From a virus, in IMG/VR virus record IMGVR_UViG_3300027793_000296, positions 1 through 22,700 of that record: a stretch of 22,700 nucleotides of DNA; one strand, given 5' to 3'. The notes under the pieces were generated by a model. It ran no database searches. It saw nothing but the letters and a program-made list of their open reading frames with translations, and was not told the origin of the DNA. Made by a program: the position numbers and the translations under genes. The stretch's first letter is position 1, and every line of letters begins with the position of its first letter. Below are positions 1-21,043 of this stretch, piece after piece.

Positions 1-1266
1 TTCAAATGCTTTTGTATCTTGACCGTATTTCTTTGCAAGTTCAATAATCTTATTGTATTTTGATTCAACTAAAAGAACTTCTCTATCTTGGGCATCCATG
101 ACACCAAGTAAAGCTTCTTCTCTTGCCTTTTGTAATTCTTCTAATTCTTTCTTTCTGGCTTCAATTTGTTTAGAATAATCAGGTGGTGATTCTAAACCTT
201 TCTTTAGATTCTTATCATTCTCAATTGCTTGTTGAGTAAGTTTATCACCTTCTGCAGCAAACTTCTCTGCTTCTTTTTGTGTATCAGTTAAATTTTGTGC
301 ATAACTTCCAATTTGATTGGATGCAAATGCTGCATACTGACCACCTGATAAAATGTAATTACCAATGGTTTCCCAAGTATCAGGTTCTAAATCTTCACCA
401 CTAACTGCCTTTGCAGCTGCCTCTGCAGATTTAGCATAAAACACATTTGCTTGTGTTCTTAATTTTATACCTTCAATTACGGTCTTTGTATTTGCTGCAA
501 GTAATGCTTCTGCTTGTTCTAATGAACCAGCAAAACCAACGGTAGAACCAAGAGTTTCGTTATACTTCTTGAGTGCCTCATCCTTTGATATAGTACCATC
601 TTTTGCTTGTTTGAATGCATTATTTACATCAAATAATTTCTTATTGAAATCTGCTAATGCCTTGGTTACATCTGCCTGTGCTTCTTCATAGGTTTTTGAT
701 TCCAATGTAGCACCCATGATTGCATCTTTTACTTTATCCCAGTTTGCAATCAACAAACCTAATGCAACTACAATCGCACCAATACCAGTTGCAGTTAATG
801 CTGCAGCGAATGCTCTTGCACCCGATGCAGCTGCAGTTTCACCAACACCTACTGCTACGAATGAACGAGCTAATGCCTGATTTAATACAGTATATACTTT
901 GGTTATACCTGTCATGTTTGCAAATCCTTTTGCAACATCAGTTAAATCATTACCTAACTCAACAAAAGAACCTCGTATATCGGTTAGTTTGATTTGTCCA
1001 AATGTTTTAAGAGTACCAACCAAACCACTTGTTTTACCGGCAATGTCTCCAATAGGACCAGGTAGATTACCAAGAACATCTGCAAAGTTTCCAGCACCAG
1101 CTTTGGCAGCCTTGATCGCCTCTTCAGTATCATCAATTTGTTGTTGTAATCTCTTAAATTCTGCTGGGTCAGTTGTATTTCTTAATTCTTTTTTTAACTG
1201 TCTTAATGCAGCAATAGAAGGGGTTACATCTATACTAGCTTCTATTTCTATTTTCTCATCTGCCAT
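1..1266 (-). CDS. tail tape measure protein, N-terminal part (runs off the window)
   Basis: I translated this frame by hand from the ATG at 1266-1264; it stays open to base 1, giving 422 residues with the C-terminus outside the window. The order of parts is an acidic start (MADEKIEIEASID), a helical coiled-coil-like stretch at about 20-58 (many K/E/Q, for example KRLQQQIDDTEEAIKAAK), a Gly/Ala-rich part, a hydrophobic segment at about 157-176 (ATGIGAIVVALGLLIANW), then long Lys/Glu/Ala/Gln-rich helices. A hydrophobic segment between long helices is typical of phage tape measure proteins, which fill the tail tube, set its length and help DNA pass the host envelope. Its start overlaps the end of a 49-residue ORF by 11 bases. 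No sheath or chaperone gene lies directly before it; three glycosyltransferase-like genes do, which is an odd neighbourhood. Confidence 0.85.
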   Translation of the reverse strand, partial: MADEKIEIEASIDVTPSIAALRQLKKELRNTTDPAEFKRLQQQIDDTEEAIKAAKAGAGNFADVLGNLPGPIGDIAGKTSGLVGTLKTFGQIKLTDIRGSFVELGNDLTDVAKGFANMTGITKVYTVLNQALARSFVAVGVGETAAASGARAFAAALTATGIGAIVVALGLLIANWDKVKDAIMGATLESKTYEEAQADVTKALADFNKKLFDVNNAFKQAKDGTISKDEALKKYNETLGSTVGFAGSLEQAEALLAANTKTVIEGIKLRTQANVFYAKSAEAAAKAVSGEDLEPDTWETIGNYILSGGQYAAFASNQIGSYAQNLTDTQKEAEKFAAEGDKLTQQAIENDKNLKKGLESPPDYSKQIEARKKELEELQKAREEALLGVMDAQDREVLLVESKYNKIIELAKKYGQDTKAFE

Positions 1267-1433: not shown

Positions 1434-2285
1434 TTATCTAAATAGGTGAAGATAGTTTGTATAATCACCCCAATACGAATGTGTTGGGTATACATTATCT
1501 TTTCTGTATATACTGAAATGAGATGTAAAGTGGGAGCCATGATTGATGTGGATACTTTCGTTCTCACATCTCCATTGATTTCTTGTCATTCTTTGTGATT
1601 CTATCATACCACTATTTGTCACCAATGCATTACCAAGAATAGAATGAAAATGTTCTAATGCATCTTCTACTCTCATTGTCATTTGGTGCATGGGTTCATC
1701 ATCTTGACCTCTATATTGCCATCCATCTCTATTGATTCCACCATAATTCATGTTAGTTAGAATACCTCCACCGAAATCTTCGTAATCAAAATACCCTACT
1801 GGATATAGAACATCGTGTTCCAAGAATGATACATATTCGTACTTACCCATTGTCTTTGCAACATAGATACATTGTAAGATTTGTAGTAGTTGATTCAGGT
1901 GTGAAGATGAACGATTCCAAGATATAACTTCGTGGAATGGGTTTTCTTGTATAGGATTCCATACACAAGTTACTATATCTGCCTTTCCTTCTGCAGCAAT
2001 GTTGATTGTTTCTAATGATTTGATTACTGCTGGGTGATTAGTTGTATCGTTAGAATACCATACACCTAATTTATTATGTTGGGATTTTGGATAGGTAAAA
2101 GTATGACCTTCTCTAATACTATGTAATTCCCCATTTATTTCTATTTCTAGGAACTTTACGGTTCCAACTTGTGTATCACCGATTATATTATTATCTACAC
2201 GGAGAACTAATCTTTCACCCCTAATTTTGGATTTTACTTGTGGGAGACAATCTACACCTCCATAAGTTGCTTTTGTTATATTCAT
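1434..2285 (-). CDS. putative glycosyltransferase with an extra N-terminal beta domain
   Basis: The protein has 283 residues. Residues 1-64 begin MNITKATYGGVDCLPQV and resemble a small all-beta domain I associate with DUF3395-like regions (ItkAtYGg...DVt...LvlrvdNniiGD). Residues about 100-283 look like a GT-A-type glycosyltransferase: a strand VSFLEHDVLYP at 152-161 with E156-H157-D158 where the metal-binding DxD usually lies, then TNMNYGG, a PMHQMTM stretch and HINHGSHFTSHFSIY near the C-terminus. The His residues there could serve metal or donor binding. There is no signal peptide, so it should act in the cytoplasm. Its ATG overlaps the previous stop by one base (TAATG), so it is coupled to the 217-residue gene. 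Donor and acceptor are unknown. Transferase activity is inferred from the motif layout; a glycan-binding or inactive role is possible. Confidence 0.6.
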   Translation of the reverse strand: MNITKATYGGVDCLPQVKSKIRGERLVLRVDNNIIGDTQVGTVKFLEIEINGELHSIREGHTFTYPKSQHNKLGVWYSNDTTNHPAVIKSLETINIAAEGKADIVTCVWNPIQENPFHEVISWNRSSSHLNQLLQILQCIYVAKTMGKYEYVSFLEHDVLYPVGYFDYEDFGGGILTNMNYGGINRDGWQYRGQDDEPMHQMTMRVEDALEHFHSILGNALVTNSGMIESQRMTRNQWRCENESIHINHGSHFTSHFSIYRKDNVYPTHSYWGDYTNYLHLFR

Positions 2286-2938
2286 TACGGTCTTACATAA
2301 AATGATTTTTTAATCCATTTAGAAGAATGTATATCACCATATCCTTCTAAATAAGTTTTACTTGCGTTTATTGAATGGAACATTAAACTCCATCTTCTTT
2401 CCATACCTTGTTGCATCAATTTCTCTTGTGGGTATTTTAACCATGATGTAGGTATTCTATTCATTGTAGAATTTCTTACACTAAAAATAGGACCGAATAT
2501 ACCTTTTTCTGGATAATCATGGAATTCTATATCAGTTTCACACCATACTTTTTGTAAAGGATGTATATCGTAAGAGTATGGAAAATCAAATCCTGCTACA
2601 ACTTCAAATGATTTTAATTGTTCTTTGATTTGTGATATGTAATCAGGTCTTATTATTTCCAAACTATCTTGTAAAAAAATCCAATTATCTTGATTTTTTA
2701 TATTTTGATATGCCCAAATATAAGCACCTGAATCAAAACATTTGTAATCTAATGATGTAAAATGATATGGGTACTTGTTTTTACATTCTAAAAACCATTC
2801 CTTAAATTTTATATCTTCACTATTAGTATCTACAATAAGGACTTGTTCATCACATAAATCTACATTTTCTAAACTAATCAAAAACTTATGTAAAATTTCT
2901 ATGTTATTATGTGTTGCAACTACAATCATTTTAGACAA
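2285..2938 (-). CDS. putative GT2-like glycosyltransferase, short
   Basis: The protein has 217 residues. The N-terminus MIVVATHNNIEILHKFLISL followed by EQVLIVDTNSED is the classical first beta-alpha-beta unit of a family-2 type, GT-A-fold glycosyltransferase, which binds the nucleotide-sugar. GAYIWAYQN at 71-79 and WIFLQDSLEI at 86-95 match the following helix and the strand that normally ends in DxD. Here the motif reads Q90-D91-S92, so the metal site is reduced. It is shorter than a usual GT2 enzyme, and the C-terminal part (MERRWSLMFHSI, WIKKSFYVRP) is basic and aromatic. No leader peptide is seen. It overlaps the upstream 312-residue gene by 13 bases and the downstream gene by one base, forming a coupled three-gene cassette. 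It may be a degenerate or helper subunit; acceptor and sugar are unknown. Confidence 0.65.
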   Translation of the reverse strand: MSKMIVVATHNNIEILHKFLISLENVDLCDEQVLIVDTNSEDIKFKEWFLECKNKYPYHFTSLDYKCFDSGAYIWAYQNIKNQDNWIFLQDSLEIIRPDYISQIKEQLKSFEVVAGFDFPYSYDIHPLQKVWCETDIEFHDYPEKGIFGPIFSVRNSTMNRIPTSWLKYPQEKLMQQGMERRWSLMFHSINASKTYLEGYGDIHSSKWIKKSFYVRP

Positions 2939-3864
2939 GATCTTTTACCAGTTCTCATTACCCAATCCCAATACCACCAAGAAGCAGTACCTTTGTTTGG
3001 TTCTGGTGAGTTGTAAGGTAATTGATTCATATAATTTGATTTATAGAATAATCCTGATGTAGAATTAGTTACACCTGCATTATGCATTATATTTTTTATA
3101 TGATATTCATCTTCACTTGATGTACCCCAAGAAAAATCAAAGTTAGAATGAGTTATAGTTTTGTATCCCATCAACCAACCTTTCCACAATACACTCCACA
3201 TATCTGAACACCAGATTTGTAATTCGTGGTATGAAGGATTTTCTGATTTCTTTTTGTTGTTTAGTTCGGTAATCTCTTTGAATAATCTATCACATTTTTT
3301 CTCTACCCAATCCCAATACTCATAGGATAATCCTTTCATCAGGTATTGAGCACCAATGCAATTATGTTCGTTTTCTTTTACCAATTCTTTTGGTATTTCC
3401 ATTATCTTACACATCTCATCTAATACATCTTCACCTTTACCGATAATGTAATCGTGGGAGATATACCATCTTGTGTCTGAACCATACCAATTATCATCTT
3501 CTAACATCTCATCAGTAATCCAAAAAATAGGATTCTTGGTAAAGAGTATATCACAATCATGGTAGAATATAACATCTCTTTCTAAATAAGAATGTGCTTG
3601 AAAGTGTTGTTTTAGAATGTTGGGACGAATAGAAGAGATATAGTGTTTATTCTCTCTCGTATCATCGTAGAAGAAGAATCTTGCTGGATAGGAATTGGCA
3701 AGTTTAATCCAATCATCAGGAATAACTCCATTCACTTTCCAACAAACTATATCCATATTATTTGGGTTTATACCCATTGATGTAAAGTTGTTGATTAGGA
3801 CCTCAACCTGCCACTTGTAATAATCAGTAGCAGGTTGGGCACATACATATCTTAATTTTTTCAT
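2926..3864 (-). CDS. putative glycosyltransferase with DxD motif
   Basis: The protein has 312 residues. It carries IFYHDCDILFTKNP at 99-112, a good DxD (D103-C104-D105) in the usual 'y-x-D-x-D-x-l-f-x-x-P' setting of nucleotide-diphospho-sugar transferases. GAQYLMKG at 171-178, the ELQIWCSDMWSVLWKGW stretch at 214-230 and HNAGVT at 261-266 follow. This order recalls the hydroxyproline/serine O-arabinosyltransferase-like group seen in plants, algae, large viruses and phages; that resemblance is from memory. No signal peptide or membrane segment is present, so it should work in the cytoplasm on folded or nascent protein. It lies 16 bases after the 456-residue Thr-rich tail gene and is the first of three coupled transferase-like genes, which makes Thr/Ser residues of the tail proteins plausible acceptors. 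The enzyme class is fairly clear; the acceptor is inference. Confidence 0.72.
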   Translation of the reverse strand: MKKLRYVCAQPATDYYKWQVEVLINNFTSMGINPNNMDIVCWKVNGVIPDDWIKLANSYPARFFFYDDTRENKHYISSIRPNILKQHFQAHSYLERDVIFYHDCDILFTKNPIFWITDEMLEDDNWYGSDTRWYISHDYIIGKGEDVLDEMCKIMEIPKELVKENEHNCIGAQYLMKGLSYEYWDWVEKKCDRLFKEITELNNKKKSENPSYHELQIWCSDMWSVLWKGWLMGYKTITHSNFDFSWGTSSEDEYHIKNIMHNAGVTNSTSGLFYKSNYMNQLPYNSPEPNKGTASWWYWDWVMRTGKRSCLK

Positions 3865-3880
3865 ATAACTTTTATTTTAT

Positions 3881-5251
3881 TTACACACAACATTCAACTA
3901 TGGTTCCAGATACTGGTACTATACTAGCACTTACAAATGTTGGTGATGCAATTTCACCACAAGTTGGTGCAGCTACACATTGTACATCACTTGTAGCAAT
4001 GATTATACTACTTGTATATCCTGACGGTATGAATAAACTTGAAGTTGAATTATCACTATATCTTGATTCTACATTTATATCAAATGGAGGGAAGATTTCA
4101 CTTCCACTACAAGCAGTAAAGATTTTCATTACTGTATCGGTTGTACTTGCAAAGTAGCCAGGACAATCAAAACATTCACCTTGAGAACTTTGTACAGTTT
4201 CTAATGTATAACAATATGCAGGTGCAGCAGTTGTAGTTGTGGTTGTAGTTGTGGTACAATTTATTACTACTGGTGTATTTTGTACAGAAACAGTTCCTAC
4301 TGAATCCAATACCGCAACATAATATGTTCCGTTTGCAATACTTGCCCACTCATAGGTATTACCTGTCACTGCATATCTTGTACCTGAAATACCTTGTACT
4401 GCATTTGATGCGTTTGCTTGTGAATCTGCAATTGCTGTATAACTATATGTTCCACTACCTCCACTAAATGTAGAAGTAAATGTTCCTAAATTACCTATAC
4501 AAGTAATAGAACCATTACTTACCAATAATGGTGCTGCAGTAGTTGTGGTTGTAGTTGTGGTTGTTGTAGGACATCCAGTCACACCAGAACCACCTACACT
4601 AACAACATCAATTAAAGAACCACCAGGATTAGAAGTTAATTCTGCTATAACATACCAAAATGCTCCACCAAATGTAACTCTTTCATTTACAACAAATGTT
4701 CCTGCTGTTTTTTGAGTAGAGTATTGTGTACTACCATCAACACAATTATATAATGAATACCAAACTGGTTGTAATGTAGTTGTTGTTGTGCTCGTAGTAC
4801 TTGTAGTTGTAGTAGTAGGTGCAGCAGTTGTAGTTGTAGTTGTAGTTGTGGTTGTACTTGTAGTAGTTGTGGTTGTTGGTTCTAATGTAGTAGTTGTAGT
4901 TGTAGGTGCTGCAGTAGTTGTTGTTGTACTAGTTGTAGTAGTAGTTGGTTCTAATGTAGTTGTAGTAGTAGTTGGTGCAGCAGTAGTTGTACTTGTAGTT
5001 GTTGTTGTAATTGGATTTACATTTTCAATAACGGTATTACCACACGCTTCAGATAAAGAAGTTAAACGAATACAAGTAGAATCACTATCAACTGTACAAT
5101 ATACAACTGAACCTACTGATGGTAAAAATGCATTAGTACAATCTACCGATTGAGAATAAGTTATACAATCGGTAGAATACTGAACTGAAAAGTTAGGACC
5201 TGCTATTCCATTCAATTCAGTTAATGTTATTTTTCGTACTTGATTTGCCAT
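3881..5251 (-). CDS. modular tail appendage protein with poly-threonine linkers
   Basis: The protein has 456 residues and four compact modules: 1-81, 161-227, 241-331 and 345-456. They are joined by Thr linkers at 82-160, 228-240 and 332-344. The linkers are almost only Thr with recurring AAP and LEP steps. The modules contain Cys near their borders (C170/C227, C251/C332, several after 345), suggesting disulfide-closed or metal-bound beta domains. Module 241-331 (GGSGTYSYTA, NGTYYVAVLDSVG) resembles a SprB/PKD-like beta-sandwich. Such linkers are flexible and are classical O-glycosylation substrates. It follows the last tail-tip genes and precedes three glycosyltransferase-like genes. Its start is in the same frame as the preceding 583-residue gene, with one TAA and four codons between them. 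It is likely an exposed adhesin or decoration on the tail tip; no enzymatic motif is visible. Confidence 0.7.
   Translation of the reverse strand: MANQVRKITLTELNGIAGPNFSVQYSTDCITYSQSVDCTNAFLPSVGSVVYCTVDSDSTCIRLTSLSEACGNTVIENVNPITTTTTSTTTAAPTTTTTTLEPTTTTTSTTTTTAAPTTTTTTLEPTTTTTTSTTTTTTTTTTAAPTTTTTSTTSTTTTTLQPVWYSLYNCVDGSTQYSTQKTAGTFVVNERVTFGGAFWYVIAELTSNPGGSLIDVVSVGGSGVTGCPTTTTTTTTTTAAPLLVSNGSITCIGNLGTFTSTFSGGSGTYSYTAIADSQANASNAVQGISGTRYAVTGNTYEWASIANGTYYVAVLDSVGTVSVQNTPVVINCTTTTTTTTTAAPAYCYTLETVQSSQGECFDCPGYFASTTDTVMKIFTACSGSEIFPPFDINVESRYSDNSTSSLFIPSGYTSSIIIATSDVQCVAAPTCGEIASPTFVSASIVPVSGTIVECCV
4220..4255 (-). repeat. third Thr linker of the 456-residue protein
   Basis: Residues 333-344 are a Thr run ending in Ala-Ala-Pro. 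It follows the Cys that closes module three (C332) and precedes the first Cys of the last module. Confidence 0.75.
4532..4570 (-). repeat. second Thr linker of the 456-residue protein
   Basis: Residues 228-240 are Thr followed by Ala-Ala, with Pro next, separating the second and third modules. It has the same composition as the long linker but is only 13 residues. Confidence 0.75.
4772..5008 (-). repeat. tandem Thr-codon repeat encoding the 79-residue linker
   Basis: This stretch is built of ACN codons (ACA, ACT, ACC, ACG mixed). It contains a larger unit of 69 bases (23 codons): the plus-strand word gttggttctaatgtag begins at 4875 and again at 4944, each followed by a GGTGC-GCAG (Ala-Ala-Pro) step. 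The mixed codons show that the DNA is not a pure trinucleotide repeat, so the protein sequence rather than simple slippage seems to be maintained. The 69-base duplication is a place where recombination could lengthen or shorten the linker. Confidence 0.8.
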
Positions 5252-5263
5252 TATATATTTTAA

Positions 5264-7015
5264 TTAAGGTATTCCATTAGTTGTAGTTGTAGTTGTTGGT
5301 GCAGCAGTAGTAGTTGTTGTAGTTGTTATAGTACAAGGCCCATTATCTTGTATTACTAAATTAAGACAATTACCTATAATACAATTACCATTTCTGATAC
5401 TTCCAGGTATTGCACAGAATGGTCTAGAACCACTGGTTCTTGTTCTTGTAATTCCATCACAATCAGTATAATCAAATTGAAATACTCCTGAATAAACATT
5501 TACAAAATACTCGGTACAACCTTGAGTTGTAGTTGTTGTAGTAGGTGCTTCAGTTGTAGTAGGTGCTCCAGTTGTAGTTGTAGGTGTTGGTTGAGTACAA
5601 GATCTGTAAGTTAGAATGAATCTACCATTTCCACCTTTTCCAGGAGTTTCAGAAGTAGCACCTCCACCTCCACCACCAGTACCATCGGTACCACCATTAC
5701 CGGCAGTACCACCACCATCAGTAGCAGTTCCATTAGCAGTAGTTCCACTACCACCTCCACCACCACCAACTGATAATGCAGTACCAATTAAACCATTAAA
5801 GGTAATACCAGGCCCACCATTTCCACCAGTACTTCCACCATTTGAACCATTTCCAGTGGCACCACCACCACCTCCATTAGCACCACCGCCACCATTTGAT
5901 TGTGTACCAGTTCCTGCAGTTCCACTACTTTCACCTATACCTCCACCAGAACCTCCTCCAGCATTTCTACCACTATTATTAGGGAATGAACCACCACCAC
6001 CAGCACCAAATCCAGCAGTATAAGTTAGAAATACAGAATTAGTACCATCACCACCTTGTAATCCTGATGTAGGTGCTATACCACCTCTACCAACTGTTAC
6101 TGCATAAGAACCTGATGAAAGTGTTAAGTTATTTACAAAAAGAACTTCACCAGCTCCACCACCACCACCGGCATCTTTACCTGCATTATTATCATATCCA
6201 CCTGCTCCACCACCACCGATTAGTAGTAGTTTTGCATCAGTAGTAGTACCACTAAATACATTTAATGTTTTTGATTGTGAAGAACCAGAATCATGAAACC
6301 AACTTATAAATTCATATTGAATACCACCTGATATAAATGAACCTGATGCTGCACCTTGCATTGATGCACTTAAACAATTAGGTGCTGCAGTAGTTGTTGT
6401 TGTACTAGTTGTAGTAGGTCCTGCAGTAGTAGTTGTTGTAGTAGGTGGATTCGGTTCAAATGATGAACTAAAACCAAATTCACAATTTACTTCAACTGAT
6501 GCATCAGATGCATCTTTAATGATTGGTCCTAATAATTGTATATTACAAGTACCATCTTTTAGATTGTAATCGTTTATTGCACGAAGATGATAGTAATTAC
6601 CTCTCCATTGTACTATATCGTTTAATTCCATCTCAAAATAATCCGCAAGGGGTATTATCGCTGATGCATTAACTAAACGAGTTCTTGGGTTATATAAAAG
6701 GGAAACATAAGTATCCCAGTATTCAGTATAAAGGGAACCAGTTGGAGTTTCACCATAAGGTGGTATTTCGTTAAAGAATAGTAATGAGTTAGAACCAGTA
6801 TTTGGTGTTAAACCATCATAATAATCTAAATAAGGAAATTGTGTTTGTAGTGATGTATCAATACTTGCAGTTGAACCTGATGGGTAATGTTGAATATAAT
6901 AATCCTCACAATCCTTTAATCCATTATAGAAATAGATATGGGGAAGTGTTCTTACCGGTTGGTAAGTTATTGATGAAATCAATGTTGGTAGAAAAATTTT
7001 ATTCTTAACTGACAT
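5264..7015 (-). CDS. tail tip protein with glycine-rich domain and poly-threonine linkers
   Basis: The protein has 583 residues. Residues 1-185 form a globular N-terminal part ending YYHLRAINDYNLKDG and IQLLGPIIKDA, like the terminal piece of tail-tip proteins, and probably anchor it to the tail. A Thr/Ala/Pro linker follows at 191-212. A glycine-rich domain lies at about 215-470: AKLLLIGGGGAGG at 261-273, GSYAVTVGRGG, then long GGGG-rich loops at 337-465. A linker at 475-497, a Cys-rich module at 500-561 and a bare Thr linker at 562-579 before the C-terminal NGIP complete it. Gly-rich beta or polyglycine-II domains are known receptor-binding parts of phage adhesins, so host recognition is a reasonable role. 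It is oddly terminated: the last linker has no domain behind it, and the next gene continues in the same frame after one TAA and four codons. Confidence 0.72.
   Translation of the reverse strand: MSVKNKIFLPTLISSITYQPVRTLPHIYFYNGLKDCEDYYIQHYPSGSTASIDTSLQTQFPYLDYYDGLTPNTGSNSLLFFNEIPPYGETPTGSLYTEYWDTYVSLLYNPRTRLVNASAIIPLADYFEMELNDIVQWRGNYYHLRAINDYNLKDGTCNIQLLGPIIKDASDASVEVNCEFGFSSSFEPNPPTTTTTTAGPTTTSTTTTTAAPNCLSASMQGAASGSFISGGIQYEFISWFHDSGSSQSKTLNVFSGTTTDAKLLLIGGGGAGGYDNNAGKDAGGGGGAGEVLFVNNLTLSSGSYAVTVGRGGIAPTSGLQGGDGTNSVFLTYTAGFGAGGGGSFPNNSGRNAGGGSGGGIGESSGTAGTGTQSNGGGGANGGGGGATGNGSNGGSTGGNGGPGITFNGLIGTALSVGGGGGGSGTTANGTATDGGGTAGNGGTDGTGGGGGGATSETPGKGGNGRFILTYRSCTQPTPTTTTGAPTTTEAPTTTTTTQGCTEYFVNVYSGVFQFDYTDCDGITRTRTSGSRPFCAIPGSIRNGNCIIGNCLNLVIQDNGPCTITTTTTTTAAPTTTTTTNGIP
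5279..5332 (-). repeat. terminal Thr linker of the 583-residue protein
   Basis: Residues 562-579 are a Thr run, Ala-Ala-Pro and a second Thr run, followed only by Asn-Gly-Ile-Pro and the stop. Every other linker in the two proteins is followed by a folded module. Confidence 0.75.
5525..5593 (-). repeat. second Thr linker of the 583-residue protein
   Basis: Residues 475-497 carry TTTTGAP and TTTEAP steps between the glycine-rich domain and the Cys-rich module. Confidence 0.7.
5621..6223 (-). repeat. glycine-rich coding repeat
   Basis: Residues 265-465 of the 583-residue protein are mostly Gly with Ser, Thr, Asn and Ala, in irregular GGGGAGG and GGGGGSG blocks. The DNA is GGN-rich on the coding strand and locally raises GC against its AT-rich neighbours. 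The opposite strand therefore shows a spurious proline-rich frame. Confidence 0.8.
6380..6445 (-). repeat. first Thr linker of the 583-residue protein
   Basis: Residues 191-212 are Thr-rich with AGP and AAP steps, joining the N-terminal anchor part to the glycine-rich domain. Confidence 0.75.
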
Positions 7016-7026
7016 AATTTATATTT

Positions 7027-9141
7027 TTAATCACTATCTTGAACGGTACAATAGAATGTTGCAACACCTGCAGCAACATCGGCTGGTTGTATTGTGTAGT
7101 TAAATGTACTTGGTGAAGTTCCAGTTGCTAAGTTAGTTTGTACTCCATCTAAATCTCTGATAAAGGTATAATCAAAGTTTGTTGCTGCACCACCTTCAGC
7201 TTCAAATGTAATTGTATTACCAACTTCCAAAGATTGTACATAGAAACCAGTTGAAGGTGAATTAATTGTTTGAGAAGTATTTTGTGAAGAAACAAATGCA
7301 GATGCTTGAGTTAGATACTGTGTTCCCAATCTAATGTTTGCAACAGCAACAGCATTAAACGAATCTATTGTACTTGCAATTGCAGTAGAGCGGAATTGGA
7401 ATACTCCACTTTGTGCAGAACCTGATGTACCAGTTCCAGCAAGATAAATCAAAGGAGTAGAAGCAAATTTACTTTTAACCTCAAATGTTCCTTGTGAAAA
7501 GAAGTTCTCGGTATCTACATAATATGATTTACCATACTCTCTATTTTCTGCTTTACTGAATTGTTGTGATACATAATCACCATCAAGAGTATCACCAAAG
7601 TTCAAGTTATTTACTGCAAGGTTGTTTGCAGGTACTACCGAAATCTTTTCATTCAAGTTTATATACTTGTTAAAATCTCTAACCTGACCTTTGTTGTACC
7701 AATTGTTAAATGTTTCTACAATAAACTCTCTTGATTTAGTTTGATTTGGGTATATTACTAAATTCCATTTCTTTTGTATGGATGTAATAAAATCAATCAA
7801 CTTAATACCTGATGTACCAAATGGCATATTCTGTGCTATGTTCATTACTAAACCATCACCACCTTGATTTACCTTGGTTACTTGTAAATAAGCATTTACT
7901 GAGTTATCAGGATTTAGTTTTACACTAAAATTAGAACCGCCTTGGTTTTCATATCTAATATAAAATTCATAAGAACCTGATGGTAGTATTTCTGAACTCC
8001 ATTCAGTTAATAATTCAAATTTTTCAGTTCTTGTTTGTGTAGAATTGTAAAGTTGAACATCATCAAGAAAGTTATTTATATTGACCAATTCGGTTGTAGA
8101 TACAGTGGTATTAGTTGTACTATCTTTAATTTCCATAAAGAATTGTGGAATACCATTACCTGCAGATGAAGAACTAACCTCAAAGTTTAGATTTAATAAT
8201 CCTCTAATGTTAGTTGGGAATCCAACTGTATAAACTAAATCAGGTGCTATATTACCTGCAGGATTTTCATTTATATTGAACCATTCAATTTTTCTATCAT
8301 TACCAGCAGTTAATAAAACATCAGTTCCACTACCACTAATAGGAGAAATCTTAAACAAACCATAAGTTTCTAAATCTATATCTTCAAATACTGGATAACG
8401 AAGATTGTTATTACACAACATATACACATTATCCAAGAATGGTTGTTCCCAAAATGATGATGAATATGTGTATCCAAATTGTTCAAAGATTGCATTCCAT
8501 ACATTTTTTATTCTAATGGCAGGTTTGAAATCCTGAACACATAAAGAACCTGATGGAGAATCTATACCGAAAAGACTTTCTTCTGGTGTATATTGTATTC
8601 TTTGTCCGTATTCTACTAATGGATATACTATATTACCACCCAATAAATTTCCATTCCAAGAAGCAGATATATTTTGATATGTAAAATCGTGATTATATCT
8701 TGCAAGAGATGAAGTTAAATCAGTTAGATAAAATCTATTTACATCTCTACCAAATGAAGATAAACCACCGTATATACTAACCTCATAACTCTCTACGAAT
8801 TTATTAGCATATACATTTACTTGATTTAATTGCAAGTATCCCTCGGATACATAAATCCCATCAAAATCAAAATAAGCGGGCACCTTTACATTTGTAGAGA
8901 ACAAGTAAGGGTTTTCTACGGCAATGTCATAAACGTGTTGAAAAAACGCGTTATTTACCTTTGTGCCAGGTATTGTAATTTGTCTTGTAAAATCAGATGG
9001 TAATACACCTAAATCAAAGAGACCGGTGACATTATTACTTACAAGTATTTCTTCATCAGAGAAAGTATCAAGTTGTTGAAACCCATTACTCCCTGAGGCC
9101 ATTAATCTAAAATTAAAACCTTTACTACTATTTACTCCCAT
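7027..9141 (-). CDS. large tail-tip / baseplate-like structural protein
   Basis: The protein has 704 residues. The N-terminal part (GFNFRLMASGSNGFQQLDTF, then DFTRQITIPGT) and the middle part with AIRIKNVWNAIFEQFGYTYS resemble the large tail-tip proteins found after the connector genes in Bacteroidota-type phages. It is beta-rich with no signal peptide, membrane segment or enzymatic motif. Residues about 620-704 (VQSLEVGNTITFEAEGG, then FNYTIQPADVAAGVATFYC) look like an added immunoglobulin-like domain, common on exposed virion proteins. Its start overlaps the stop of the 389-residue gene as TAATG, so the two are coupled, and the Gly/Thr-rich tail protein follows after 11 bases. The role is taken from position and architecture; individual domain functions are unknown. 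Confidence 0.65.
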   Translation of the reverse strand: MGVNSSKGFNFRLMASGSNGFQQLDTFSDEEILVSNNVTGLFDLGVLPSDFTRQITIPGTKVNNAFFQHVYDIAVENPYLFSTNVKVPAYFDFDGIYVSEGYLQLNQVNVYANKFVESYEVSIYGGLSSFGRDVNRFYLTDLTSSLARYNHDFTYQNISASWNGNLLGGNIVYPLVEYGQRIQYTPEESLFGIDSPSGSLCVQDFKPAIRIKNVWNAIFEQFGYTYSSSFWEQPFLDNVYMLCNNNLRYPVFEDIDLETYGLFKISPISGSGTDVLLTAGNDRKIEWFNINENPAGNIAPDLVYTVGFPTNIRGLLNLNFEVSSSSAGNGIPQFFMEIKDSTTNTTVSTTELVNINNFLDDVQLYNSTQTRTEKFELLTEWSSEILPSGSYEFYIRYENQGGSNFSVKLNPDNSVNAYLQVTKVNQGGDGLVMNIAQNMPFGTSGIKLIDFITSIQKKWNLVIYPNQTKSREFIVETFNNWYNKGQVRDFNKYINLNEKISVVPANNLAVNNLNFGDTLDGDYVSQQFSKAENREYGKSYYVDTENFFSQGTFEVKSKFASTPLIYLAGTGTSGSAQSGVFQFRSTAIASTIDSFNAVAVANIRLGTQYLTQASAFVSSQNTSQTINSPSTGFYVQSLEVGNTITFEAEGGAATNFDYTFIRDLDGVQTNLATGTSPSTFNYTIQPADVAAGVATFYCTVQDSD

Positions 9142-17167: not shown

Positions 17168-20100
17168 TTATAGAAAGTTTTTAATTGAAGTTCCCAATAC
17201 ATTAGTTCCATCAAGTGATACAAATGTCAACAAATCTATTGCCGAACCAGTTGCAGTTGCTTGATAATCATTACCACCTGCAAATCTTACATTAGGTGAG
17301 AATGTTACTGAACCAGTTGCAGCACTAGCTGCTTGTGAAATTTGTATGTTTATAGTTTGTCCTGCCTTAATGTTAGTAGGTGTAAAGTGAGTTACTGAAC
17401 CAGTTGGTAGAGTAATCACAAACATATTACCATCATTAAAATTAACTGATGCAGTTTGTGAAGTAACTGAAAGTGTATTTACAAATCCACTCATTGAACC
17501 AGTTACTTGAAGTGCTCCCGAGATTGATGCAGTTCCACTAAAAGGGAATGCAGAACCTCCACCACCGAATGAACCAGTAGATACAGTAGTAGTTCTACCA
17601 CTAGCATCACCTACCCATACATATCCTTGTTGTAAAGATGATGTTAAAGTTCCAGTTATACCTACTGAACCAGTAAATTGTGTTTCACCTATTACTTGTA
17701 ATTCTACTGCAGCAGATGATGAGAGTACAAGTGAACCAGTAATGGTTGTACTTCCACTTACATTCAATGTACCTTCTACAAATGTGTTAGAACCTGAATC
17801 AACTAATAAACCAGTCTTTCTTGTTCCAGTAGCAGTACCAGTTCCTACTGCAAATACAATGTCACTTGTTTTATTTCTTATACCATCATTAGCATTAAAT
17901 CTACCAACGAATGCAGAACCTATACTTGTTGTATCACTTGTTAATGATGAACCAGTTACTGCTAAATTAGCACCAAGTATTGCAGTTGCAGATAAATGTG
18001 TGTATGCGTTAGTTCCACTTGTTCTTGCTAAATCTGCATTTATATGTGCAGCATTGGAAATACCATATGAAATGTTTCCTTGAAATGCTGCATTATTAGT
18101 TGTTCCTGCTGGATTTGCTCCTTGGACAGTTAGATTTGTAAATTGAACTCCACCTACTAAATTATTATTTACTGTTGGTTGACCAGTACCAGCAGCAGTA
18201 GTAAAGTGGTTATTTGCAATAATGAATGAACCAGCATTAACTATGTTATTTTGAAATGCTAATGATGAACTATTCATCGTTGCCTGCATTGCACCATTTA
18301 CTATGTTATTAGTTGCAGAAGGTGTTGTAGCTAAAGTTGGTAAAGCAGCATTAGCACTTGCTCCAAAAGTCATAGTTCCAATTACCTGATTACCAGTAAA
18401 TGTAAAGTTCGGTGTTCTTGTAAGGTCATTTACACCTGCTTGACCAAGGTTCAAAGTTCCAAATATAGCGTTATTACTAATGGTAAATAAACTACCCGTA
18501 ATAGGTCCTCTAACAGTTGTTGTACCACTACCGAAGTAGTTAGATGCCATTGTTATAGGGGTTGTCATAGAACCAGTCACTTGTGGCATGCCGGTTGCAC
18601 TATTTACTATATTATTACTTCCAACTATTCTTTTGTAATCTGCAGTTGGTGCACTTGGATTGGTAAATATGTTATTACTACCACTTATGGTTGTATCGGT
18701 AGTATTATTATTATTCTTAAAAATTATATTTACTTGATTACCTGCAGATGCAGTAAGGTGTGAAGATGCAGATGTAAATGTTTTTGCAACCAACATCAAT
18801 GAACCTGATGCATCTGAAAGGGTTATAGTATTACCTGATGCATCTATCAAGGTTTGATCTCCAGTAAATGTGTTAGAACCAGTAGTTGCATAACTTCCAG
18901 TTACTGATTGTAAATTATCTACTTCACTTTGTAATGATGCGGTAGTAAGTTCTATATTATCTAATCTACCATCTACCGATTCGGTAAATGAGTTAAATGA
19001 TGAAGTAGTTGCAAAGGTTGCATTCAATACTTCTTGAGATGCAGTAAATGCATTCAATGGTCCTAAATCACTATTGATTAAAGGTGCATTACCATTTACC
19101 AATAACGAACCAGTTATTTGTGTAGCAGAGTTTATAGAGACAGTAGAACCATCATCACTAATGTTAGAATCTAATAAGTGATGTCCTCCATCTCCTTTTT
19201 GTATTCTATTATTTGTTGGATATGATGGAGAACCTTTTGTTGCATAATCTGGTCCAAATAATGCAACTCCAAAGTTTAATGGGTCTGAACCAGTATATTC
19301 ATAAAACCAATCGTTGGTTAAACCATCAAATTGGAATGATGCAGTAGTATTAGCAGAACCTGAATCCTGAACTATAATACCAGCATATCTTTCAGTTGGT
19401 GTATCGTTATTCAATACAATAAACGCATCACCGATAATCTTTGCAGAACCAGTTACTGATTCAAGATATGCAATAGATGCAGTTCCATTTACTGCAATGT
19501 TATTAAATGTTTGAGTTCCAGTAAATGTATTATCTTGGTTAAAGATATAAGATGATAATGAACCACTTGTTACTGCAACCGGTACTCCATTACTATTACC
19601 TACCCACACATATCCTTGTTGGATGTTCGGTAATCCATCTGCAACTTGATTGAATACAATACCTCTACCATTTGTAGCTTCTAATGTTACAACACCTAAT
19701 ACTTGAACCGATGCAGAACCAGTTGGTCTTGTTGCAGTATAACCACCACCAGGTGCTAGGTAAATAACAGTACCTGCAGGAAATCCATTTGTATTTACAT
19801 TTTGAATTTCACCACTAATTATTGCAGTTCCAGTTGCAGCAGGTGCAAGAGTTGTATCATACGCAATTAAAGTTGCTGGTCTTCTTAGTGGATTGTTAGC
19901 ATCTGCTCTAAACACATTTGCATTATCACCAGTTGAACCTGAAACGAATAGAGGAGTTCCTCTTGTAATTGCTACTGAATCAACATTACGAATGTTTTGG
20001 TGAAGGGTTTTAACCCAATCAAACGAAAGATTACCTGCACCATCAGTTGATAAGAACTGGTCTAATACACCATCAGTATAAGTTGTATCTTGTAATACTA

Positions 20101-21043
20101 CTTGTGATGAGCCAGAAACAGTCCCTGCAGGTAATGCTGAAACAACTTGTGCAGAGCCTGATATAGTTCCACTTGGCAATAACGGAGTTATTTGTGCTGC
20201 ACCACTTACAATACCTGATGGTACATTTGATAATCCAGTATAAGATACTTGAGATGATCCTGATACAATACCACTTGGTATATTACTAATTTGTGGGTAG
20301 TTGATTTGGGATGAACCTGATACAACACCACTTGGTAAAAGAGGAGTTATTTGTGCTGCACCACTTACAATACCTGATGGTAAATCAAGAGTTACATTGG
20401 TATCACCACTTGCATTACTATAAGTTAATGTTAAAGGTGTTAGAGGATTATTTTGTATATCGGTAATAAATGAACCAGTATCAATAATACTTCCACTTAC
20501 ATCAGGTATATTTACTGCAAAGGTAGAACTATCACCTTTTGTAAAAGTTAGATTTCTTGTGTTATTATTAAATGATGCAGTAATTACTGATGAACCAGTT
20601 ACTGATGAACTAACAAATCCTAATGCAGTAAGTTGTCCTGAACCTGAAACTATACCACTTGGTATATTACTAATTTGTGGGTAGTTTATTTGCGATGAAC
20701 CTGACACTACGCCACTTGGTAAAACACTACCACTGGCATCAGGTATATTCACAGCAAATGTAGAACCATCACCTTTTGTAAAGGTTAGGTTTCGTGTTCC
20801 ATCGTTAAATGATGCAGTAGTAAGTAATGAACCAGTATCGGTTGAACCACCACTACCAGTCACATTATTGATTCGTGTATCAAAAGATGCAGAATCAATT
20901 GTATATTTTTCTTGATTGACAGTTGAGTCAATCATGTTTTCATTGAATGTTCGTAAAGCAGTTGGAGTAATCAATCCCGCATTGTTATTTGGGAATGACA
21001 TATTATTTTCTACTTTGAGAGCTTGTTTAGTTAATTCACTCAT
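17168..21043 (-). CDS. long repetitive tail fibre protein
   Basis: The protein has 1291 residues and is very rich in Ser, Gly, Thr and Asn. Residues 1-100 form the N-terminal part (MSFPNNNAGLITPTALRTFN). Residues 85-340 carry repeats of LPSGVVSGSSQINYPQISNI type. Residues 355-475 form a domain with RGTPLFVSG, GEIQNVNTNGFPAGTVIYLAPG and QQGYVWVG, and 520-640 a domain with AGIIVQDSGS and GGHHLLDSNISDDG, both typical of fibre shafts. Residues 780-1000 form an Asn-ladder region (SNNIFTN, GNQVIG, NNIVNG, QNNIVNAG) that looks like a right-handed beta-helix. A second QQGYVWVG lies near 1140, and a terminal beta-domain at 1195-1291 has GQTINIQISQA and LLTFVSLDG. It probably binds the host surface. 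No S74 peptidase is visible. Confidence 0.8.
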   Translation of the reverse strand: MSELTKQALKVENNMSFPNNNAGLITPTALRTFNENMIDSTVNQEKYTIDSASFDTRINNVTGSGGSTDTGSLLTTASFNDGTRNLTFTKGDGSTFAVNIPDASGSVLPSGVVSGSSQINYPQISNIPSGIVSGSGQLTALGFVSSSVTGSSVITASFNNNTRNLTFTKGDSSTFAVNIPDVSGSIIDTGSFITDIQNNPLTPLTLTYSNASGDTNVTLDLPSGIVSGAAQITPLLPSGVVSGSSQINYPQISNIPSGIVSGSSQVSYTGLSNVPSGIVSGAAQITPLLPSGTISGSAQVVSALPAGTVSGSSQVVLQDTTYTDGVLDQFLSTDGAGNLSFDWVKTLHQNIRNVDSVAITRGTPLFVSGSTGDNANVFRADANNPLRRPATLIAYDTTLAPAATGTAIISGEIQNVNTNGFPAGTVIYLAPGGGYTATRPTGSASVQVLGVVTLEATNGRGIVFNQVADGLPNIQQGYVWVGNSNGVPVAVTSGSLSSYIFNQDNTFTGTQTFNNIAVNGTASIAYLESVTGSAKIIGDAFIVLNNDTPTERYAGIIVQDSGSANTTASFQFDGLTNDWFYEYTGSDPLNFGVALFGPDYATKGSPSYPTNNRIQKGDGGHHLLDSNISDDGSTVSINSATQITGSLLVNGNAPLINSDLGPLNAFTASQEVLNATFATTSSFNSFTESVDGRLDNIELTTASLQSEVDNLQSVTGSYATTGSNTFTGDQTLIDASGNTITLSDASGSLMLVAKTFTSASSHLTASAGNQVNIIFKNNNNTTDTTISGSNNIFTNPSAPTADYKRIVGSNNIVNSATGMPQVTGSMTTPITMASNYFGSGTTTVRGPITGSLFTISNNAIFGTLNLGQAGVNDLTRTPNFTFTGNQVIGTMTFGASANAALPTLATTPSATNNIVNGAMQATMNSSSLAFQNNIVNAGSFIIANNHFTTAAGTGQPTVNNNLVGGVQFTNLTVQGANPAGTTNNAAFQGNISYGISNAAHINADLARTSGTNAYTHLSATAILGANLAVTGSSLTSDTTSIGSAFVGRFNANDGIRNKTSDIVFAVGTGTATGTRKTGLLVDSGSNTFVEGTLNVSGSTTITGSLVLSSSAAVELQVIGETQFTGSVGITGTLTSSLQQGYVWVGDASGRTTTVSTGSFGGGGSAFPFSGTASISGALQVTGSMSGFVNTLSVTSQTASVNFNDGNMFVITLPTGSVTHFTPTNIKAGQTINIQISQAASAATGSVTFSPNVRFAGGNDYQATATGSAIDLLTFVSLDGTNVLGTSIKNFL
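20184..20223 (-). repeat. 40-bp perfect direct repeat in the fibre gene, copy 1
   Basis: It is identical to 20343-20382 (plus strand starts ggagttatttgtgctgcacc). It encodes 'LPSGIVSGAAQITP'-type residues. The spacing is 159 bases, which is 53 codons and in frame. Confidence 0.85.
20271..20340 (-). repeat. 70-bp direct repeat in the fibre gene, copy 1
   Basis: It matches 20655-20724 with five mismatches in 70 bases. It encodes the 'LPSGVVSGSSQINYPQISN' unit. The copies are 384 bases (128 codons) apart and in frame. Confidence 0.85.
20343..20382 (-). repeat. 40-bp perfect direct repeat in the fibre gene, copy 2
   Basis: Identical to 20184-20223. Recombination between the copies would remove 53 codons without breaking the frame. 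Confidence 0.85.
20655..20724 (-). repeat. 70-bp direct repeat in the fibre gene, copy 2
   Basis: This is the partner of 20271-20340. The flanking segment 20736-20820 is also similar to 20499-20583, so two overlapping repeat periods exist in this shaft region. Confidence 0.85.

Follow-up and report, generated by a model that had tools for sequence, protein, structure and literature searches.

A GT8-like phage enzyme and threonine-rich virion proteins point to a candidate virion self-glycosylation cassette

Analysis of a viral locus from IMG/VR (positions 1-22,700 of virus record IMGVR_UViG_3300027793_000296; this whole 22,700-nucleotide stretch is termed the window) points to a virion self-glycosylation cassette, in which one enzyme, here called GT1, would O-glycosylate threonine tags and linkers in the cytoplasm and neighboring transferases would extend the glycan. 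We put the probability of this reading at about 0.83. The earlier note on this DNA had proposed a phage tail-glycosylation system, and fold prediction and a co-occurrence survey both support that interpretation; sugar attachment itself we infer from these results. Together with Thr tags on shell and tail proteins, GT1 points to a widespread, hardly noticed self-glycosylation route across phages whose bacterial hosts differ widely. Since glycoproteins cannot be recognized from sequence annotation, those of phages seldom attract notice.

The five ORFs of the cassette were confirmed with the sizes given previously, all on the minus strand (Table 1), and the last three (GT1 and the 217- and 283-aa genes) overlap by 13 bases and by 1 base. 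The 583- and 456-aa products are termed putative tail proteins because their genes lie between further structural genes and that of the tape-measure protein, not because of a family match. Virion self-glycosylation calls for a transferase-fold protein adjoining virion protein genes, an arrangement found in the window and, with tagged virion proteins, in relatives. A DNA-level search of the cassette against phage records gave no match, and NCBIfam and PADLOC searches returned nothing, and hence no sign of a defense system.

Table 1. Features of the candidate cassette and its borders
Feature	Coordinates	Strand	Description
Structural protein, 704 aa; anchor for presence/absence comparison	7027..9141	-	Neighboring gene
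Putative tail protein, 583 aa; presumed glycan carrier	5264..7015	-	~173-aa conserved N-terminal domain, three Thr/Ala/Pro linkers, glycine-rich domain (PF21722)
Putative tail protein, 456 aa; presumed main glycan carrier	3881..5251	-	79-residue Thr linker and two shorter; directly upstream of GT1
GT1, 312 aa; presumed Thr O-glycosyltransferase (core enzyme)	2926..3864	-	phrog_4417; predicted GT8-like GT-A fold
GT2-type transferase candidate, 217 aa, TTG start; presumed glycan extension	2285..2938	-	Sub-threshold PF00535
Two-part protein, 283 aa; presumed glycan extension	1434..2285	-	Short N-terminal beta part, then predicted GT2-like GT-A fold
Tape-measure protein (partial), cassette border	1..1266	-	phrog_24676, E 1.1e-6

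The six linkers that had been counted on the two adjacent carrier proteins, the longest of 79 residues, were located at residues 190-212, 476-497 and 564-579 of the 583-aa protein and at residues 82-160, 228-241 and 333-345 of the 456-aa protein, with overall Thr contents of 15.3% and 25.7%, respectively. Linkers of this kind are rare by chance, occurring in 2 of 696 ORFs from 80 random viral loci. The underlying DNA is no uniform microsatellite but an irregular alternation of ACA and ACT codons in which some ACC and ACG also occur. Linker lengths differ strongly among relatives, and relatives of the 583-aa protein from loci without GT1 mostly consist of the ~173-aa N-terminal domain alone, the linkers being gone.

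GT1 is a member of phrog_4417 (profile match, E 1.5e-58, residues 5-302 of 312), a family listed as "unknown function", and its phage relatives are annotated "prophage pi2 protein 34". No Pfam or NCBIfam family matched GT1 at E ≤ 1, PF01501 (Glyco_transf_8) matched none of 27 GT1 family members, and a GT1 profile search of PDB sequences returned nothing useful, so the fold assignment rests on structure comparison. The AF2 model (pLDDT 96.4) found its best matches among solved structures in glycogenin (Z 14.7 over 228 residues, rmsd 3.5), LgtC (Z 14.4), UGGT and LARGE1, and GT1 is accordingly modeled as a GT-A fold of the GT8/glycogenin-like type. Residue conservation was assessed over 80 sequences, 16 from isolates and 64 window or metagenomic. 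D103 and D105 of the DxD metal motif are present in all 80, while H261, G264 and K275 are invariant or nearly so; of the GT8 HxxGxxK motif, H261xxG264 is kept and the conserved lysine is K275, 11 residues later. The motifs D103-C-D105 in GT1 and E156-H-D158, both pointed out previously, are present, with acidic residues that are invariant in their respective families.

The two genes that follow GT1 are predicted to encode further transferases. The 217-aa product matches PF00535 (Glycos_transf_2) with E 0.007 and 16.8 bits, below the curated cut-off of 23.3. The model of the 283-aa protein (AF2 pLDDT 88.9) places a GT2-like GT-A fold over residues 68-283, with fold matches to 6p61 (Z 15.1) and to SpsA and TarP (Z 13.9); the nucleotidyltransferase IspD comes near as well (Z 13.1), and a GT-A fold by itself is therefore no proof of sugar transfer. 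Its N-terminus weakly resembles a rhamnose-binding lectin. The proposal that all three genes are GT-A-like was thus upheld by models and fold search for GT1 and the 283-aa protein, and went no further than the sub-threshold GT2 match for the 217-aa gene. Structure prediction had been named beforehand as a check, and the outcome of two genes in three was counted in favor. No isolate relatives of the 217- or 283-aa genes were found, and the one viral match to the 217-aa gene was a near-identical contig. Across loci, transferases predominate among the genes downstream of GT1 (GT2, Gly_transf_sug, GT6, GT11, GT29 and GT60), with PF00535 detected at E ≤ 0.01 in 23 of 72, the near-twin of the window included.

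The survey of co-occurrence that had been called for shows a strong association of the lead transferase, GT1, with Thr-rich proteins. A Thr-rich ORF lies directly upstream of GT1 in 31 of 41 non-redundant viral loci, as against 2 of 696 control ORFs, and these upstream ORFs fall in several unrelated protein groups. Four further loci carry runs of seven Thr codons elsewhere on the contig. The other six (L032, L035, L042, L046, L059 and L062) have neither a Thr-rich ORF adjoining GT1 or within 4 kb upstream nor a seven-Thr-codon run on the fragment, so some GT1 members may have other acceptors. Among relatives of the 704-aa anchor, an unrelated gene, 11 have linkers as well as GT1 and 22 have neither, with one contig-edge exception. 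On the anchor tree linkers and GT1 each change five times; the number of phylogenetically independent pairs is insufficient to reach significance (median p 0.125), and adjacent genes can move together through linkage alone. In the reverse search, GT1 was found on 24 of 66 contigs chosen solely for a Thr linker and on 0 of 50 random contigs. It was not seen on the remaining 42 Thr-linker fragments, which means that a linker can also go with a different enzyme or with no enzyme; GT60 (PF11397) lies beside or near the linker gene in some of the loci without GT1, an enrichment that is by itself borderline (p 0.056).

The GT1 family occurs in many phages, including those of Lactococcus, Lactobacillus and Enterococcus; Lactococcus phage CHPC971, prophage bIL285 and Lacticaseibacillus phage R9.1 are GT1-positive examples. 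In Gram-positive phages it lies near major capsid, connector and tail-tube proteins that end in a poly-Thr tag. Runs of five or more Thr occur near GT1 in 15 of 16 GT1-positive isolate loci, mostly at the C-termini of head and tail proteins, and in none of nine GT1-negative phages with a homologous major tail protein. In a separate set of bacterial genomes, T5 runs were found on the GT1 strand in 36 of 39 GT1 loci and on the other strand in 0 of 39. When tags of different proteins from one phage were paired, 23 of 47 pairs had the same two final residues, compared with 5.9% between phages, and the common endings are encoded by differing codons; the likeness is at the level of protein rather than DNA. 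The tagged proteins tested are major head, connector and major tail proteins. In one family of 159 genomes, a strict tag was found in 12, GT1 in 11 and both in six; in those six, no tag is more than 2.3 kb away from GT1. Since the Thr tags of Gram-positive phages are carried by the major capsid protein, the head-tail connector and the major tail protein, the system is specific neither to tails nor to Bacteroidota, contrary to the earlier suggestion. The further argument, that the phage brings its own enzymes because the periplasmic system of the host cannot reach virion proteins, can therefore be dispensed with.

In the proposed mechanism, GT1 would act in the host cytoplasm as a phage-encoded, GT8-like, metal-dependent glycosyltransferase that places sugar on threonines in Thr-rich segments of virion proteins: internal linkers in the window phage and its relatives, and C-terminal poly-Thr tags in Gram-positive phages. 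The 217- and 283-aa proteins would be exchangeable transferases that extend or vary the glycan. Direct action on Thr is suggested because GT1 is the one member that stays constant and because it stands, in Gram-positive phages, beside tagged proteins without other annotated transferases in the stretch viewed, where many neighbors are unnamed. The same two observations weigh against a different assignment of roles, in which virions are glycosylated and GT1 extends a chain that a host or other phage enzyme starts on Thr. GT8-fold enzymes such as LgtC and LARGE1 often act on sugars, which speaks for an extender, and the unnamed neighbors temper the second observation; we consider this arrangement unlikely. 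Use of a nucleotide sugar as donor, the sequence in which the enzymes would act and any advantage for the phage are likewise inferences, and the glycan may rigidify linkers, resist proteases or mask epitopes.

Surface-modifying transferases are carried by phages, and for that reason one might suppose that these enzymes alter the host surface (receptor or O-antigen conversion, superinfection exclusion) beside Thr-rich neighbors that are there by chance or linkage. The capsule-type families PF05704 and PF04488 downstream of GT1 in relatives fit this idea, but GT1 tracks Thr-rich tags and linkers across unrelated phages, is mostly found within the virion gene region (next to capsid genes in certain phages, next to tail genes in others), and among relatives of the anchor gene those that have no linkers have no GT1 either, making a host-surface role quite improbable. 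That the Thr runs are neutral repeat slippage or unmodified flexible spacers, as the ready expansion of triplet repeats and the variable linker lengths might suggest, is slightly less credible still, given the mixed Thr codons, the reverse strands free of such runs, the common endings spelled in different DNA and the absence of runs from GT1-negative relatives.

Beyond the cassette, we judge it reasonably likely that a C-terminal run of about 5-12 Thr with a short ending, common to unrelated capsid, connector and tail-tube proteins of one phage, is a portable glycosylation tag, the acceptor signal for one dedicated transferase whose family spans phages that infect Bacteroidota, Bacillota and at least one actinomycete, the Bacteroidota-type phages having internal Thr linkers together with additional enzymes for extension. 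If self-glycosylation by GT1 is correct, an orphan gene family found in many phages gains a function, a short C-terminal tag makes it possible to predict glycosylation of capsid and tail, and these phages need a fresh look at the mass and stability of their particles, at diffusion through mucus or biofilm and at host-factor recognition. Paired with a poly-Thr tag, one soluble enzyme would also make a simple tool for cytoplasmic O-glycosylation.

In the open-access literature we found neither a description of such a system linking threonine-rich or poly-threonine phage proteins to glycosylation nor a link between phrog_4417 and Thr tags. Like the GT8 enzymes glycogenin and LgtC, GT1 has a predicted GT-A fold, a DxD motif and a late His...Gly...Lys triad; unlike them, it has a different His-Gly-Lys spacing and no Pfam GT8 match, at ~10% identity. 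Virion self-glycosylation is described for mycobacteriophages Che8, Corndog and Myrna, where, in the account of Freeman et al. 2023 given in PMC12363180, phage-encoded transferases glycosylate capsid and tail-tube proteins, as proposed here. Che8, the sole mycobacteriophage compared, differs in that gp108-gp110 lie at the right genome end, far from the structural genes, and resemble GT1 to no usable degree (hhalign probability 0.1% with gp110; HMM scores ≤ 0 bits for gp108-110), and Thr runs are missing from its capsid and major tail protein. In the streptococcal serine-rich repeat adhesin (Fap1/SRRP) clusters, nucleotide sugars are transferred sequentially to protein (PMC5207161). There the acceptors are exported surface adhesins and the initiator is a Gtf1/Gtf2 complex, whereas the acceptors proposed here belong to the virion and one GT8-like protein serves as the constant enzyme; neither a Gtf1/Gtf2 pair nor accessory secretion appears among the family matches of the window. 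The two systems share their layout, with a repetitive, hydroxyl-rich acceptor encoded beside the (here presumed) initiating enzyme and further transferases.

All five genes described in the earlier note, and its six Thr-rich linkers, are present among the window ORFs, and the linkers have mixed Thr codons with no single perfect repeat. In this 22.7-kb virus record, the portal, structural and tape-measure protein genes all lie on one strand; a 1291-aa protein with repeated 'SGIVSGSSQ'-type segments is also encoded. GT1, the 312-aa GT8-like protein, is a member of phrog_4417, which is listed as unknown function, and a search of Pfam and NCBIfam models gave no match. The AlphaFold2 model of GT1, built from an input of 39 sequences, has a mean pLDDT of 96.4; compared with solved structures, it lies closest to GT-A transferases of the GT8/GT24 type (Z 14.7 to glycogenin, 14.4 to LgtC and 13.6 to UGGT). 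Residues D103, D105, H261, G264 and K275 are conserved in nearly all of 80 sequences, extending at ~30% identity to phages of Gram-positive hosts. One relative is contained in a 665-aa open frame (L181), possibly as a fusion with another domain.

The GT-A fold proposed for all three transferase-like genes was predicted for GT1 and for the 283-aa protein, while the 217-aa protein gave only a GT2 match below threshold. The 283-aa protein adopts the fold from residue 68 onward (AlphaFold model, pLDDT 88.9; best Z 15.1, SpsA and TarP ~14, with IspD nucleotidyltransferases also at ~13), and its residues 1-67 weakly resemble rhamnose-binding (SUEL-type) lectins. Of 72 genes that lie downstream of GT1, 23 likewise match GT2, and further ones match GT6, GT11, GT29, GT60, Gly_transf_sug and Caps_synth, a variety that marks GT1 as the constant member and the other cassette genes as exchangeable. 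Radical SAM/SPASM and FkbM methyltransferase genes also occur among the cassette transferases of relatives, where further modification of peptide or glycan is possible.

Viral GT1 relatives were collected blind to their neighbours. At non-redundant loci with enough upstream sequence, a Thr-rich ORF lies immediately upstream of GT1 in 31 of 41, compared with 2 of 696 ORFs of random viral loci, so the co-occurrence anticipated in the earlier note was borne out for GT1. These ORFs form several protein groups, mutually dissimilar outside the linkers. Runs of 7 Thr codons were found elsewhere on the contig in four of the ten exceptions (L012, L014, L015, L027) and in none of the other six; the corresponding rate for random records is 1 of 30.

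Loci were also fetched through the neighbouring 704-aa structural protein (the anchor), which is neither carrier nor enzyme. Where the protein after the anchor lacks Thr linkers (mostly a ~173-aa N-terminal domain alone), GT1 is absent (22/22); where it has them, GT1 follows in 11 of 12. In the single miss (L105) the contig edge falls at the final Thr-rich frame, and a near-twin (L104) does have GT1. On the anchor tree, linkers and GT1 each change five times, and a sign test on independent pairs had too few pairs to reach significance; mere linkage of adjacent genes is a possible explanation of this co-presence. When contigs were picked solely by a DNA pattern encoding TTTTTAAPTTTTT, 24 of 66 had GT1; of those picked by an arbitrary 14-mer, 0 of 50 did (Fisher p 1.9e-7). 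On some Thr-pattern contigs without GT1, a GT60 gene (PF11397) lies near the Thr-linker gene (5/50 vs 0/50, p 0.056). GT60 includes enzymes adding GlcNAc to protein Thr or hydroxyproline, and would thus do the same job by another family.

Coordinates of features in the window and in relative loci (L-numbers)
Feature	Location
283-aa protein	window 1434-2285 (-)
217-aa protein	window 2285-2938 (-)
GT1	window 2926-3864 (-)
456-aa putative tail protein, Thr linkers	window 3881-5251
583-aa putative tail protein, Thr linkers	window 5264-7015
704-aa structural protein (anchor)	window 7027-9141 (-)
1291-aa repeat protein	window 17168-21043
GT60-type genes beside or near Thr-linker genes, phages without GT1	L148:3461-4375; L156:8155-9063; L199:2513-3493
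Radical SAM/SPASM and FkbM methyltransferase genes	downstream of GT1 in relatives; L156:7151-8152
Major tail protein with second overlapping Thr-rich frame	L382:3117-3930; L387:3164-3926; L399:3729-4431
Thr-rich frame after capsid gene, vipetofem and VPE25	L383:3600-3823; L397:4165-4386
Frame beyond capsid stop, bIL285	L384:3850-3985

Among phage records, 74 contain a GT1 relative, and almost all of these come from phages that infect Lactobacillus, Enterococcus, Staphylococcus, Lactococcus and kin. Runs of five threonines (T5) or longer lie near GT1 in 15 of 16 isolate loci examined, as against 0 of 9 phages that have a homologue of the major tail protein but no GT1 (p 4.9e-6), and are mostly at the extreme C-terminus of head or tail proteins. 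In phiFL1A the capsid protein ends ...TTTTTTTQG and the major tail protein ...TTTTTTTQASSK; two CHPC971 proteins end ...TTTTTTTTRHD, and Semele is another example. Bacterial genomes supplied a separate set of 39 loci, of which 36 have T5 runs on the GT1 strand, none has them on the other strand, and 32 have a C-terminal tag. When tags of two different proteins from one locus are compared, their endings are alike in 23 of 47 pairs, versus 5.9% between loci; because they are often written in different codons, simple copying of DNA does not account for the likeness. Those tagged proteins that were tested are major head, head-tail connector and major tail proteins. Among 159 genomes of one family, 12 have the strict tag pattern, 11 GT1 and 6 both, at tag-to-GT1 distances of 3 bases to 2.3 kb. 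In three phages, staphylococcal and of Arcanobacterium, a Thr run closes the major tail protein and is followed by a second overlapping Thr-rich frame, as if a ribosomal frameshift yielded a less abundant, longer product with an extended tag. An unannotated Thr-rich frame directly after the capsid gene in vipetofem (there in a different frame) and VPE25 may extend the capsid protein by frameshifting. Past the bIL285 capsid stop the frame reads on as NDKTTTTTTRHD, an ending identical to that of its major tail protein, which may reflect stop read-through or a sequence change.

The predicted fold, conserved residues, genomic association and protein-level tag likeness are the observed parts of a mechanism in which GT1 would most likely move a sugar from a nucleotide donor onto Thr hydroxyls of tags and linkers in the cytoplasm, before assembly or during it; we infer the acceptor, the donor, the order and the benefit. 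In the Gram-positive phages the genes near GT1 include no other annotated transferase, which points to GT1 as the enzyme that begins the chain in them. In the window, the 217-aa and 283-aa proteins would probably extend it.

Mycobacteriophages encode enzymes of their own that glycosylate the capsid and tail tube (PMC12363180, citing Freeman et al. 2023). The Che8 transferases have no usable similarity to GT1, and Che8 capsid and tail proteins are without a Thr run. The streptococcal serine-rich repeat adhesin clusters (PMC5207161) have a similar working arrangement to the GT1 cassette, although in the latter the acceptors would be virion proteins.
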